A DNA stretch of 64,000 nt, taken from Tetradesmus obliquus (Eukaryota; Chlorophyta; Chlorophyceae; Sphaeropleales; Scenedesmaceae). The translations under genes were made by a program, and so were the position numbers. Positions within the stretch are counted from its first letter, which is position 1; each line of letters begins with the position of its first letter. Below the pieces are notes generated by a model. That model was not told where the DNA came from and did not search any database. It saw only the letters and a program-made list of their open reading frames with translations. Positions 46-45,619 of the stretch are shown here, piece after piece. The DNA lies in NCBI GenBank assembly GCA_030272155.1, contig CP126206.1, positions 2,232,001 to 2,296,000 of the forward strand. The letters are read 5' to 3'.

Positions 46-3000
46 CTCGTCCACATCATCCTCCATGCTGTCAGGGTTCTCCGCCAGGCGCCGCTCGCGC
101 TCGATGTCCTTCTCGATGTTCTCGCGGATGGCGCTCTTGCACGCGCGCTGGCAGATCTCCGTGATGTCTGCACAAAGCAAAAGAAGTGCGGAGCAGAGCA
201 GCATGCATAGACGGATCAGCTTAGGTTGGATGCGGCTGGAGCCCTTGCACGCGCGCTGGCAGATCTCCGTCATGTCTGCACAAAGCAAAAGCGGCGCAGG
301 GCAGCATGCATTGAAGAAGGAGGTTGATGCTGTGCAGGATCGGGCTCTTGCACGCGCGCTGGCAGATCCCCGTGATGTCTGCACATAGAAACGGCCGCAG
401 AACACAGCACATCAAGCACACATGATAAGCAGAGTGCACCATCTTCACACCAAACTTCACCACCTGCTCCCCAGAAGCCATGCGTGCATTTGGTGAGCAC
501 AACACAGTCCACATCCAGTCTGATCAGGCTCTTGTGCAGCAGATACCACTACATGGCCATGCATAAAATCACACCAAAGTTCACACCCACCTGCCCCCGA
601 GAAGCCGTGTGTGAACTTTGTCAGGACCTCAAAGTCCACATCCGGCGCGATGGGGCTCTTGCGCAGCACAGACTTGAAGATCTGGCGGCGGCTGCCCTCA
701 TCTGGCAGCGGGATGTAGATGAGCTGGTCCAGGCGCCCGGGGCGCAGCAGCGCAGGGTCGATGATGTCCGGCCTGCGGCAGAAAAAAAAAGCAACAGCAC
801 ATGTTGTTATGTGACAGGACCAGGGTCAGGCAGCGGGGTGAAGATGAAGTGATTCACACGCCCGGGGCGAAGCAGCGCGGGGTCAATAGTATCCAGCCTA
901 CAGCAGCACCTGAAACCGCTCGACTTCCGAGGCCAGAAACCACTGGCTTCACCTCACTGCACAACCCAATTTTCACGACCGCTGATGACTCAACACCACA
1001 TGCGCGTACACCGCGCAGATGCCGCAGAACCACGTAGCAGTGGCCAAACACGCACCTGTTTGTTGCCCCGATAATGAACACGGTCTTCTTGCTGCCCATG
1101 CCGTCCATCTCTGTCAGCAGCTGGTTCAGCACGCGGTCAGCCGCACCGCCAGCATCACCTGCAGCAGCAGTGCAGCAGCAGCCGAGTGAGCACAGCCTGA
1201 CATAGCTATCAGTCTGAGTCTGATAAACAAATAGCGCATGTGTGCTGCCATGTGCTGCTCTTAGCAGTCTGCCTGTTCTCATGAAGTTGCTACTGCTTTG
1301 CATGCGCGCAATGTGCAGTGTCAGGCATCACAGCGCATCCGTGCCAGCAGCAACAGGCACCGCATGAAGTTGTGCCAAACAGCAAGACAGCCACCGCTGC
1401 TGCCGCGCTGCACCGCGAAGGAGTGCAACTCATCCCACAGCACGCAGCACAGCACCCAGCAGACACAGCTGCTTGCTGTGGTACCCAACAGCAAACACAC
1501 AGAAACTCACCGCTGCTGCTGCCGCGCTGCACTGCGATGGAGTCGAGCTCATCAAAGAAGAGCACGCAGGGCGCACTGCCGCGCGCCTTGTCAAAGATCT
1601 CGCGCACGTTGGCCTCGCTCTCTCCAAACCACATGGTGAGCAGCTCAGGGCCCTGCAAAAACCAAGTGAGCAGGTCACGGTGTTGGGTTTCAGCACAGCA
1701 ATTGCGATGGTCGCGCACATTAGCCTCGCTCTCTCCGAATCACATGGTGAGCTCAGGGCCCTGCAAGCAGCATCAACGTATTCAGGTGGTTTGATGCGTT
1801 GGGTGTTCGTACAGAAGCTGCAAAGACGGCACATGTTAGCCTTGCTCTCTCCAAACTACATCGTGAGCAGCTCAGGGCCCTGCAACCAGCATCAACACAT
1901 TCAGGTGGTTCAGTGCGTTGTGTGTTTAGTACAGAAGCTGCAAAGACGGCACATGTTGGCCTCGCTCTCTCCGCACCACATGGTGAGCGGCTCAGGGCCC
2001 TGCATATATTAAACATACAGACCCACAGGCACAACACCAGCGCGCCTTACTAAGGTATGGCAATGTTGGGCGAGTACCACCGGATGCCGCTCCAAAATGA
2101 AGGCAAAGCAGATGAAGAATTGCGGGGGGAATGCGCACCTTGATGCTGATGAAGTTGGCCTGGCACTCGTTGGCGATGGCCTTGGCCAGCAGCGTCTTGC
2201 CGCAGCCTGGCGGGCCGTAGAACAGCACGCCCTTGGAGGGGGCCATGCCAAACTTCTCAAACTTCTCAGGGTGCTCCACGGGGTACTGCGGCACAGAACA
2301 TGACAGGATTTTCAAGTTATGTTCGGATACATTTGAAGCAACAGCACGCCCTGGGAAGACTCCATGCCAAACTTCTCACGACAGGTGCGAACGTGTGCGC
2401 TTCAATGGCAGAAACGTGCTGGAGCTGCGCAGCCAGCTGTTGTGTTGAGTAGGACCGCAGCATCTTAAAGGACTGTATGCAAACTGCATAACACGAGCCT
2501 GCAAGGCTGCATGGCTCACCTGGATGAGCTCCCGCAGCTGTTGGGCATCTCCACCACATTTCATGCATGCACAACTAAACCCTGCCCAGGCAGCACTAGC
2601 CCCAAGAGATGCCAAGCCAAAACCCTGAACCCTCACCTGGATGAGCTCCTGCAGCTCGCGCTTGACGCCCTCCAGGCCACCACAGTCTCGCGCAGGCACT
2701 AAACCCCACACTGACAGGTCCAAAACCCCAAGTCCTCACCTGGATGAGTTCCTGCAGCTCGCGCTTGACGCCCTCCAGGCCGCCGATGTCCTGCCAGGTG
2801 ATGTTGGGCACCTCAACGACTGTCTCACGCAGCGCGGAGGGGTTGGACATGCCCAGCGCGGTCTTAAAGTGGTCCTGAAGGCGGCAGCAGCAGAGATGGC
2901 GAAATGGTGAGTATGTTGTCATCATGGCAACAGCAGGAGCATGCAAGGCACCAAAAAGCGCAAGCCATGCACCACCTGCCAAGCCATGTTGCTAGCATAT

Positions 3001-42819: not shown

Positions 42820-45619
42820 TCACCAGCTGGAACTGCCGGGCCTGTAGCCTCCCCAGCGCCTGCCGTAGCGCGAGTAGCCTCCAGGCCGTGGCACGTATGT
42901 TGGCATGCTGCCCGCCCACACATCAGAGCCCCAGTTGGAGTAGGTGCCCCAGTTGTCCCAGCGGTTGCTGCCCCTGCGGTGCAGGGGAGCAAAAACATAC
43001 ATCACCGAGGGTGAGGGGGTGACAGTAGCGTATGGTTGGGAGCTGCGCATGTCACACAACCACATACCAAGCAGCAGCAGATGCGGGAGGTAGTAAATAG
43101 TTGGGTGCCAAGGCTTGTAGGCTGCCCACGCGCCAGAGCCCCACTTGGAGTAGGTGCCCAGTTGTTCCAGCGGTTGCTGCGCCTGCGGTTCAAGCAAAAA
43201 AAAACATTACCGAGGGTGAAGGGGTGGCAGTAGCGTATTTTTGGGAGCTGCACATGTCACACAACCACATACCAAGCAGCAGCAGATGCAGGAGGTAGTA
43301 AATAGTTGGGTGCCACTTGTGGGTTTATAGGCTGCCCACGCGCCAGAGCCCCACTTGGAGAAGGTGCCCAGTTGTCCCAGCGGTTGCTGCGCCTGCTTTT
43401 CGCAACAGCATTGTGGTAGAGCAGAGAGTGCAAGGATAGGACAGTCGCATAGCATATGGTATTTGCACATTGTGTTGTTTTAATTCTAGTACATGCATGT
43501 GTTATGACAAGTTGTTTATGACAAGTTGTGTAAGAGAGGGATTGCTGCTCAGCTCACCTCCAGCTGCGCCCGCTGCTGCTGCGGCTGCTGCTGTAGCGCC
43601 TGCTCTTCTTCCCATGCTCCTTCACACCAGCAGCATCTGCGGCTGACTTGGATGCAGCTGTTGATGCTGCTGCTGCTGGTCTAGGCGTAGCAGCAGCTGC
43701 ACTGCCGTCCTTGGAAGGTGCAGCAGGTGTGGTGGTAGCAGTTGTGTTTGCTGTGGGTGCAGCAGCAGCAACTGCAGTGCGGTTGGAGGGAGCTGCTGTA
43801 GGGGTGGCGGGCACTGCTGCTGCTGCTGCTGCTGGCTGGGGTGCACCAACAGGCTTTAGTGATGTAGCTGGCTGCTGTGTTGCCTTGGGGCTGTCTGCAA
43901 CTGCAACAGGCTTGGCAACTGCACGGCGCGCAGCAGGTGTACCCCTAACAGGTGCTGCTGCTGGATTGCTGCTGCTGACTGGCTTTCCCGCCTTGTTCAA
44001 GTTATTGCCAACTGGGCTCTTGGGGTTGCTGCTTGCAGGCACAGTAGCCCTGGCACGAGTTGCCAGCAGCGGCTGCTGACCAGCTGCTGCAGTCGAAGGC
44101 TTGTTGTGCCTGTTGCTGTTCCTGTTGATCACGGAAGCAGAGGGCTTGGCAGCTGCAGGCCTAGCAGGTTGAGGGTTTGCAGGAGTCGACTTTGCAGGAG
44201 ACTTGGTTGGAAGAGGCTTGAGGGGAGCTGCTGTGCCTGCAGGCCTTGCAGGAACCTTTGTGTTGCTTGCAGGAACCTTCGTGTTGCTTGCAGGAAGCTT
44301 GGTACTGCTTGCAGGAACGGTCTTGTTACTTGCAGGAGAGGGCCTGGCAGAACGAGGCTGGGCCTGAACTGGCTGTGGCTTGAAGGCAGCCAAAGGCTGC
44401 TGCTGTTGCTGCTGCTGCTGCCGCCGCTGCATGGGTGTATGCAGCAGCCTCCTTGCAGGGACAGCAGTGGTAGCTACTTGGCCTTGGTTGAGGATGGTGC
44501 CTGCAACATAACAGACGGCGCGTAACCAGCCTCAGATGCTGCACAACCCTATCAGAATACAAACCCAATCACTGGAGTTGACATGGCAATGCTGTTCTTT
44601 ATAATTAAACCTATTAGGCTTGCATGACACATGGACATGGTCAATTTTGAGGGAGCTGCGAGGCAAATACAAGGCTGCAAATGCAGCAGCCATGCAGACT
44701 AGAAAAACTGGTCATAATACCTGACAGAGCAGCTGCACTAATGGGAAGAGCCAGCAGCACAGTGATGCTAGCATGCATGAGCTCTGCAGCAGTCAACTGC
44801 CACATGTTTACTGTGGCCTTTGTGGTAACAGCGCTGTGCATGTCACGCGTTTGCTGCCAAACAGAACAGCTGCGCAAATCTGCAGGTTGTTGTTGCTAAG
44901 AGGCCGGCTACTGCTGCTTGGCAAGATACACACCGCCCGCAATGCAACTTGAAGCAAGTCAACCCGGGTGTGAAGTGCTCTACGGCCAGGCTTGCAGCAG
45001 GACTCCCAATTTGTGAAGTCATACATATCATTGCAAACTCACCAAGCATGTGCCTTGCTGGCTGGTCAGGATCTTTCACTGCAACAGCTGACATAATGTG
45101 CGCCAGGCCTGCCATATCAGAGGCTTCTGCAGCAGCTGGAAGCACCACGGCTGTGTCCTGCTGCACTTGCTGTACATGTGCTGCTGCAGCTGCAGGAAGA
45201 GAGTGTCAGAATGACAGGTGCGCAGGAGGCAGTGTGTAGTATATGATTCAGCTATAGAAAATCAAGGCTTTGTTGCAGCTGCATGGCTTACAGCTTGTCA
45301 TGACATAAGTCTTGCAACTGCGCCAGCATATGCTGCGGCAGAACCCGAGGTGTGCGCCAGGTCACTGGCCTGCCATTCCTGACAGGCAATGTATGCGGCA
45401 TGTGCTGAGACGTGCAGGTGAAATTCGCATCGGAGAATGTTCTGTAGTTTCGTGTATGACTACCGCTGGTCGAAGCCTTGCCGGAAAGTTGCACACAAGT
45501 CCTGCTGCTGCCATAGCCCTGGGTGCCTTACTCCTGCTGAAGCTGCACCATCCAACACGTTTGGACATGTGCTTACCTGAAGCCACTAAGGCCAACAGAA
45601 TGAGCTCAATATTCTTCAT
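42820..45619 (-). CDS. Secreted basic Ala/Pro/Lys-rich protein with aromatic Gly/Arg/Trp tail, 4 exons
   Basis: I do not recognise a family. Exons 45577-45619, 45043-45189, 43558-44500 and 42820-42973 give 428 residues. A signal peptide MKNIELILLALVAS precedes AAAHVQQVQQD; an in-frame ATG four codons upstream is also possible. A short helical region is followed by about 300 residues of Ala/Pro/Lys/Ser/Thr with repeated KVPASNT-type pieces, then an Arg/Ser-rich RRYSSSRSSSGRSWR, and a tail with alternating RW, WG, GGY and SW residues. The composition suggests an extracellular matrix or wall protein, basic enough to bind acidic polysaccharide; this is inference. The exon 4 head has copies both upstream in intron 3 and downstream of the stop. 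Confidence 0.72.
42974..43405 (-). repeat. Two intronic copies of the basic-protein exon 4 head
   Basis: The genuine acceptor is at 42973/42974. Copies with CGCAG or similar acceptors encode SNRWNNWAPTPSGALA (near 43110-43182) and QQPLGQLGTFSKWGSGAW (near 43325-43392), in shifted frames. Both are followed by a common intron block around atgtcacacaaccacatacc. The period is about 205-210 bp. Confidence 0.92.

Follow-up and report, generated by a model that had tools for sequence, protein, structure and literature searches.

The window analysed here is a stretch of 64,000 nucleotides of Tetradesmus obliquus, a green alga in the family Scenedesmaceae (G000:C16:2232001-2296000; assembly 104.66 Mb in 17 contigs). 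Its reverse strand carries a CDC48/p97 gene, a DGAT2 gene and an SmF gene, for which models were built by hand, and further genes are referred to by the labels TMX, amine oxidase, methyltransferase, CBM and basic protein, taken over unchecked from an earlier reading of the window (the original prediction). The hand-built models comprise 17, 8 and 3 exons for CDC48, DGAT2 and SmF, and all translate unbroken to the expected proteins. They remain intact despite the presence, in many of the adjoining introns, of additional copies of exon edges, here termed decoys. Coordinates of all genes and arrays are collected in Table 1.

At least one decoy was found in the adjoining intron at 24 of the 50 junctions of these three genes (14/25 acceptors and 10/25 donors), giving a total of 41, and exon edges searched in foreign introns returned no match (0/150). 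Copying is nearly confined to the exon margins. On the acceptor side, the share of exon tiles with a match in the facing intron falls from 44 to 37, 20 and 7% over the first four 20-nt steps from the edge, with 0/223 matching beyond 80 nt, and on the donor side the values were 33, 32, 22 and 7%, with 2/192 beyond 80 nt. The tile test agrees with the original prediction that acceptor copies lie upstream of the exon, donor copies downstream, and that the unit crosses the junction. More than 60 copies at about 30 junctions had also been claimed; the number of copies is exceeded once the arrays of the TMX-like and CBM-like genes and that at 15.2-15.8 kb are added to the 41 decoys, while the number of junctions is plausible, the exact count being 24 in three genes. 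Decoy arrays account for 5249 of the 12210 bp (43%) of the 25 introns, and once these are collapsed, the introns have a mean length of 278 bp instead of 488 bp and a median of 204 bp instead of 423 bp. Where neighbouring copies lie less than 170 bp apart, as at 22 of the 24 junctions, their mean spacing is 121 bp (standard deviation 15). A comparison with exons masked revealed 10 junction arrays and one stop-codon array, besides CAG runs, and no intron-internal arrays in CDC48, DGAT2 or SmF. Runs of CAG/CTG triplets are frequent in the window (31514-31605, 32434-32487, 37318-37522 and others), and at times form the tract preceding the acceptor CTGCAG.

In the three genes, most units consist of about 30-90 nt of exon and about 40-90 nt of intron. 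Exon parts were taken from pairwise alignments; an automatic measure of the exon part gave 0 for 11 of the 22 neighbouring copies, and its null test was not used. Between the segments of multi-copy arrays, exon parts have an identity of 0.892 and intron parts one of 0.829, and gap openings number 1.4 and 4.8 per 100, respectively. The corresponding identities are 0.891 and 0.854 in the CBM-like array, and 0.885 and 0.949 in the array at 15.2 kb. Since both parts align between segments, exon and intron were copied together in these arrays. A comparison anchored at the junction had given the impression that the intron parts are unrelated, and for multi-copy arrays this was overturned by the segment-wise alignment.

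The exon parts of decoys differ from the true edge by 0-9 changes in about 42 nt, and 40 of the 41 differ by at least one. Raw differences are distributed over the codon positions as 31:27:91, a pattern at one stage attributed to selection or conversion maintaining the decoy exons, but the signal vanished once each change was counted once. The unique changes are 65 synonymous and 63 non-synonymous, a synonymous share of 0.508 versus a neutral expectation of 0.439 (p 0.13), and in-frame stops occur in 6 of the 41 decoys (over 42 nt). Donor GTGAG and acceptor CTGCAG were said to be usually kept; of the splice dinucleotides, most are indeed retained (AG in 22/25, GT in 14/16). From their sequences, decoys look unconstrained yet bear splice sites that could be used. 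The statement that copies become more diverged with distance holds weakly: among the 10 arrays with at least two decoys, six show lower divergence in the nearest copy than in the farthest, and one shows equal divergence.

Several database proteins bear on these arrays. The DGAT2 protein of another T. obliquus assembly (OEZ85_000218) has 336 residues, which is the decoy-free length, and 323 of them are identical. Two open reading frames (ORFs) listed with the source 'jgi', P0203 and P0218, are probably from metagenomes and contain the end of a DGAT2 exon, then donor-like residues, then one or two more copies of the exon end. The junction concerned has no decoy in the present genome, and the repeats read as the same duplication process at work in related algae. 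The deposited T. obliquus SmF protein OEZ86_010351 is exactly reproduced by splicing from a GT at 38426, inside exon 2, to the decoy copy at 38060, so that the middle exon is taken from the copy and one residue is altered (Y to C); this may be an annotation error, or else real splicing. A deposited T. obliquus CDC48 entry, which differs from the present genome elsewhere, has an 11-residue stretch twice, matching the decoy copy at 2637-2669, and the gene finder described below likewise called this copy an exon. The CDC48 entries P0003 and P0036, whose names look like those of transcript assemblies of relatives, are without such repeats.

When the window was compared with itself, 100 direct repeat pairs with a spacing below 2.5 kb were detected, together with four near inverted pairs, every one a self-palindrome, and 10-11 far pairs. 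The near direct pairs are confined to positions 124-43396, and the remainder (43.4-64 kb) has none. A genome sample of 20 stretches of 10 kb, at preset places over the 17 contigs, contained 180 near direct and 8 inverted pairs, and triplet-shuffled sequence, used as the control for this count, returned no pairs. Density is uneven, five of the 20 loci having at most one pair and one having 35. Over 264 kb, the 126 arrays have a median spacing of 132 bp, with a mode at 100-139 bp (62/126; 75/126 lie within 100-159 bp) and a minor second class near 240 bp.

Junctions in the sample were predicted with a gene finder that took CDC48 as its starting point and used a restricted set of exons for retraining; a freely retrained version drifted to CAG repeats and was dropped. 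The finder recovered 17/17 CDC48 exons plus 10 extra, mostly decoys, and this recovery is no independent test because it was trained on those exons. Of 136 predicted junctions in the 20 loci, 46 have an exon-edge copy within 620 bp on the intron side, compared with 6/680 for foreign segments and 1/136 for the own region reversed; with the repeat-rich loci L022 and L025 left out, the count is 35/109. Loci differ in decoy frequency beyond chance (permutation p 0.0003). Junction-spanning copies in introns, as originally described, are thus present both within the window and beyond it. A predicted splice edge lies inside 86 of the 126 arrays, versus 43.3 (standard deviation 4.6) for rotated edges. 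Some of the 86 are not junctions, since of 18 re-read from the 56 edge-positive sample arrays, 14 are clear junctions, two are CAG-rich and one is a satellite. The 40 edge-negative arrays, five of them from the window, were classed by eye and not blinded, the long ones being seen in part; 21 are junction arrays (two merely likely), three cross a stop codon or lie in the 3' untranslated region (3'UTR), and eight are coding-internal or CAG-rich. Enrichment of splice motifs in the units (84/126 versus 55.1 expected) and a junction score were also tried and set aside as too blunt, because CTGCAG is common. The lack of enrichment at junctions that had been named as telling against the original prediction was not seen in the three exactly modelled genes nor, loosely, in the 264-kb sample (predicted exons, classed by eye); copies of exon centres, discussed below, count against the prediction.

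Table 1. Genes and repeat arrays in the window (edge, coordinate of the true exon border)
Feature	Position	Strand	Basis or remark
CDC48/p97 gene, 17 exons in window (3' end outside)	46..8925	-	hand model; 98% to T. obliquus A0A383W775
CDC48 exon 17 acceptor array, edge 167, 2 decoys	124..391	-	
CDC48 exon 16 donor duplication, edge 591	445..668	-	
CDC48 exon 16 acceptor duplication, edge 772	701..906	-	
CDC48 exon 14 donor duplication, edge 1511	1376..1553	-	decoy GT lost
CDC48 exon 14 acceptor array, edge 1652, 3 decoys	1600..2004	-	
Degenerate copy near CDC48 exon 13 acceptor, edge 2285	2221..2378	-	decoy AG lost; BLAST alignment 26 bp inside exon
CDC48 exon 12 donor array, edge 2740, 2 decoys	2515..2784	-	
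CDC48 exon 11 donor duplication, edge 3528	3271..3616	-	spacing 244
CDC48 exon 11 acceptor duplication, edge 3695	3637..3817	-	
CDC48 exon 10 donor duplication, edge 4127	3989..4190	-	
CDC48 exon 10 acceptor duplication, edge 4259	4209..4402	-	
CDC48 exon 9 acceptor duplication, edge 4693	4661..4803	-	
CDC48 exon 6 donor array, edge 6171, 2 decoys	5894..6236	-	
CDC48 exon 6 acceptor duplication, edge 6276	6228..6419	-	
CDC48 exon 4 acceptor duplication, edge 7637	7598..7737	-	decoy AG lost
TMX-like gene donor array, from exon ending at 10811	10772..11448	+	TRF 12.9 units of 50 bp
Amine-oxidase-like gene repeats, exon structure uncurated	13289..14047	-	self-comparison
Acceptor array, 5 junction copies (true one included)	15180..15830	-	136 bp spacing
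Copy across stop codon/3' end	16174..16320	-	by eye
Acceptor copies	16369..17037	-	by eye
Exon-copy repeats, exon structure uncurated	17052..18077	-	self-comparison
Methyltransferase-like gene donor array	20385..20861	-	by eye
Methyltransferase-like gene donor-side repeats	21295..22110	-	by eye
Methyltransferase-like gene acceptor array	22078..22525	-	by eye
CBM-like gene, copy across stop codon/3' end	25345..25511	-	by eye
CBM-like exon copy with its acceptor	25826..26125	-	by eye
CBM-like gene acceptor array, 11 junction copies (true one included)	26222..27818	-	spacing exactly 137 bp
CBM-like gene donor array	27891..28279	-	by eye
DGAT2 gene, 8 exons, 336 aa	31289..35719	-	Pfam DAGAT 8.9e-35
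Array across DGAT2 stop codon into 3'UTR	31061..31370	-	
DGAT2 exon 7 donor duplication, edge 31858	31733..31908	-	
DGAT2 exon 6 donor duplication, edge 32313	32179..32382	-	
DGAT2 exon 6 acceptor duplication, edge 32426	32396..32676	-	
DGAT2 exon 5 donor array, edge 33186, 2 decoys	32821..33301	-	
DGAT2 exon 5 acceptor array, edge 33382, 4 decoys	33313..33837	-	
DGAT2 exon 2 acceptor array, edge 34871, 3 decoys	34790..35303	-	
SmF gene, 3 exons, 84 aa	37196..39568	-	Pfam LSM 7.2e-24; 83/84 residues as in OEZ86_010351
SmF exon 3 acceptor array, edge 37315, 3 decoys	37253..37753	-	
SmF exon 2 donor array, edge 38369, 4 decoys	37908..38430	-	copy 38060-38003 = exon in deposited model
SmF exon 2 acceptor array, edge 38494, 2 decoys	38428..38819	-	
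Basic-protein gene repeats, exon structure uncurated	42607..43396	-	self-comparison

The introns of T. obliquus have probably been lengthened by recurrent short tandem duplications, each spanning part of a coding exon and the adjoining intron. The unit would mostly be about 100-150 bp long, made up of exon and intron pieces of the lengths given above. Such an event would be tolerated because one copy of the junction, joined to the rest of the exon, would still yield the unchanged protein. The other copies would be left in the intron, where as decoy splice sites they would drift unconstrained, and repeated events would build up arrays. We infer a break-repair type of tandem duplication, acting on DNA, as the source of the copies, and further that splicing mostly ignores them and that junctions without alignable intron flanks share the same origin.

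It is likely but unproven that the duplication process is biased to coding edges, a suggestion made because purely intron-internal arrays are nearly absent. The alternative is that duplications of about 120 bp fall anywhere, that exon-internal ones are purged whereas intron-internal and junction-crossing ones survive, and that junctions are in no way special. We consider this unlikely overall, while granting it a real share of the probability. It explains the lack of exon-internal copies, and decoys do look neutral. It also predicts 18-60 intron-internal arrays beside the 24 junction arrays (18-27 for collapsed introns and 41-60 for present introns, if coding damage alone is purged), and none was seen in the three genes. 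These figures use a relative detectability of 0.7, set after a simulation that gave 0.75 for intron-internal and 0.97 for junction arrays, of which the values for old arrays are too high because 8 of the 17 introns used already hold repeats. No clear case of an intron-internal array was found by eye among the 40 edge-negative arrays, eight of which were unclassed, and one possible case was found among the 18 edge-positive arrays. The absence would, however, lose most of its force if ancestral introns were about 150 bp long. Most permitted events would then cross a junction (P(junction) 0.78-0.84), and only 3.3-4.8 intron-internal arrays would be expected (P 0.04-0.009).

Besides this last calculation, the possible intron-internal array and the eight unclassed arrays (satellite-like, dispersed or unclear), several other observations weigh against recurrent duplication of whole units at coding edges. 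Homology of the intron part can be detected in no more than 11 of the 22 neighbouring pairs of true edge and decoy, even where the exon part is 90-97% identical, which simple whole-unit duplication at equal rates does not predict; for the remaining neighbouring copies, duplication of the whole unit is therefore presumed. In the anchored comparison, the intron flanks of decoys scored slightly better, if at all, than unrelated introns (0.69 and 0.66 versus 0.61 and 0.62), and flanks compared between decoys scored 0.726 versus 0.724. Decoy-free loci exist, such as L008 (a TamB-like gene, 0/12) and L013 (a kinase gene, 0/8). Exon centres have a copy in 8/23 cases in the gene-finder sample, or 7/19 without L022 and L025, although three of the seven lie close to the cut-off of 36, with scores of 36-39, and the underlying exon calls are unchecked predictions. 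Satellite-like arrays at L022 1-3959, L010 1-1135 and L024 9302-9802, with periods of 274, 191 and 180 bp, are possible exceptions to the junction rule.

The remaining explanations fare less well. Decoys could be functional, as alternative splice sites or exons under selection, given that GT or AG is kept in 36/41, that the splice 38426 to 38060 exactly matches OEZ86_010351, and that raw differences favour one codon position; this appears improbable, as the copies show no coding constraint, with a synonymous share as under neutrality, stops occur in frame, two CDC48 entries are without repeats, and the deposited SmF model may itself be an error. A process linked to splicing or RNA, such as priming on pre-mRNA, might copy exon edges into introns, and both the centring of the unit near the junction and the undetectable intron flank in half of the neighbouring copies would suit it. 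It is nevertheless a rather remote prospect, since multi-copy arrays have homologous intron parts and an exact head-to-tail spacing (137 and 136 bp), and since arrays cross stop codons into the 3'UTR, where there is no splicing (31061-31370 and, by eye, 25345-25511 and L019 1549-2430). The arrays are very unlikely to be artefacts of assembly or sequencing, a notion with nothing to recommend it beyond their repeated appearance: in line with the original prediction that they are not echoes, copies differ in nearly every case, a CDC48 entry from a differing T. obliquus sequence carries a matching repeat, and the end of a DGAT2 exon recurs in P0203 and P0218. Insertion of transposable elements at junctions, whether introner-like or of another type, would also enlarge introns at many junctions, and is scarcely credible here, because the repeats are local (100 near versus 10-11 far pairs) and the units differ from gene to gene, no unit common to the introns of many genes being seen within the window.

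Returning to tandem duplication across coding-exon edges, the stop-codon-crossing arrays point to the edge of the coding sequence, rather than to splicing as such, as what the arrays have in common. A wider proposal, which we put forward tentatively and with rather less than even confidence, is that this alga and its relatives have a mutational process directed at coding-exon borders. The tandem duplications it generates would be about 120 bp long, with their centres close to splice junctions and stop codons, and frequent enough to mark a third to half of junctions and to make up about 40% of the intron length of the genes examined; intron interiors would be spared.

Some repeats in the window and sample are of other kinds. 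Positions 49559-51678 and 61530-63502, where the window has no junction arrays, are two diverged copies of one locus, about 12 kb apart, with pieces 71-84% identical; one copy has a sub-threshold NHL match. At locus L023 an ORF of about 336 aa that has no Pfam match is repeated (574-1581, 4856-5863 and 9138-9998) about every 4.3 kb, and resembles a tandemly arranged mobile element. Repeats inside coding sequence whose spacings are multiples of three (102, 240, 243 and 120) occur at L010 5979-6168, 3304-3626 and 8503-8851 and at L017 9291-9737, in what by eye are low-complexity protein regions. At G000:C7:5449444-5449710, two adjoining matches to the same AAA-domain start hint at an exon-edge copy elsewhere in the genome.

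The arrays offer a concrete and quantifiable route of intron growth, at a scale permitting statistics. Each decoy also amounts to a natural test of how splice sites are chosen, the spliceosome having to decide between near-identical sites 100-150 bp apart. They are at the same time a warning for T. obliquus gene models, as seen in the SmF exon derived from a decoy and the 11-residue repeat of the CDC48 entry. Mean intron length is given as 462 bp in T. obliquus versus 230-302 bp in four other green algae (PMC5966456, Table 1), the T. obliquus models there coming from a gene predictor, which decoys could mislead.

Short duplications within genes were reportedly treated as internal gene duplication by Gao and Lynch in 2009, and to our knowledge that work does not describe a per-junction abundance of this order in one genome. 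No report of pervasive junction duplication in any genome was found by title or opening of the abstract among the matches listed, the subscription literature being mostly outside this scope. Small tandem duplications linked to breaks are also said to have been described in plants by Schiml in 2016. Such duplications arise at breaks with long overhangs by fill-in repair, and need neither repeats nor homology (PMC8355091). The passages compared draw no link to splice junctions, and the likeness to the present arrays is by analogy; the copies in T. obliquus are too diverged for exact breakpoints, and hence for signatures such as fill-in and little microhomology, to be read.

Tandem duplication is an established source of introns (PMC3443670, PMC4974935), and what appears to be new here, going by the matches listed, is the scale on which duplication of junctions enlarges introns. 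The link drawn in the original prediction to Rogers-type AGGT duplication is apt. The head-to-tail direct copies at constant spacing that mark tandem genomic duplication are found in the T. obliquus arrays; in both cases extra splice sites arise with the protein unchanged, and a duplicated CAA|GTGGGG / CAAG|GTGGGG pair is put to much the same use in the deposited SmF model. Whereas the AGGT type makes a new intron, however, the T. obliquus unit crosses an existing junction and usually results in a longer intron with extra sites, a new intron being indicated only by the deposited SmF model, which may be an error. Unlike the AGGT-type cases described, junction duplication in T. obliquus is a recurrent event, seen at roughly one third to one half of the examined junctions. 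The potato RdRp gene provides an example of tandem duplication of an intron-exon structure including the 3' splice site (PMC4974935), in which one event gave a new intron and exon, while in T. obliquus many events would have given decoys. Introners, in turn, have brought mass intron change to one lineage (PMC9860276), but are one element copied into many genes, whereas the T. obliquus units are, within the window, local and specific to each gene.

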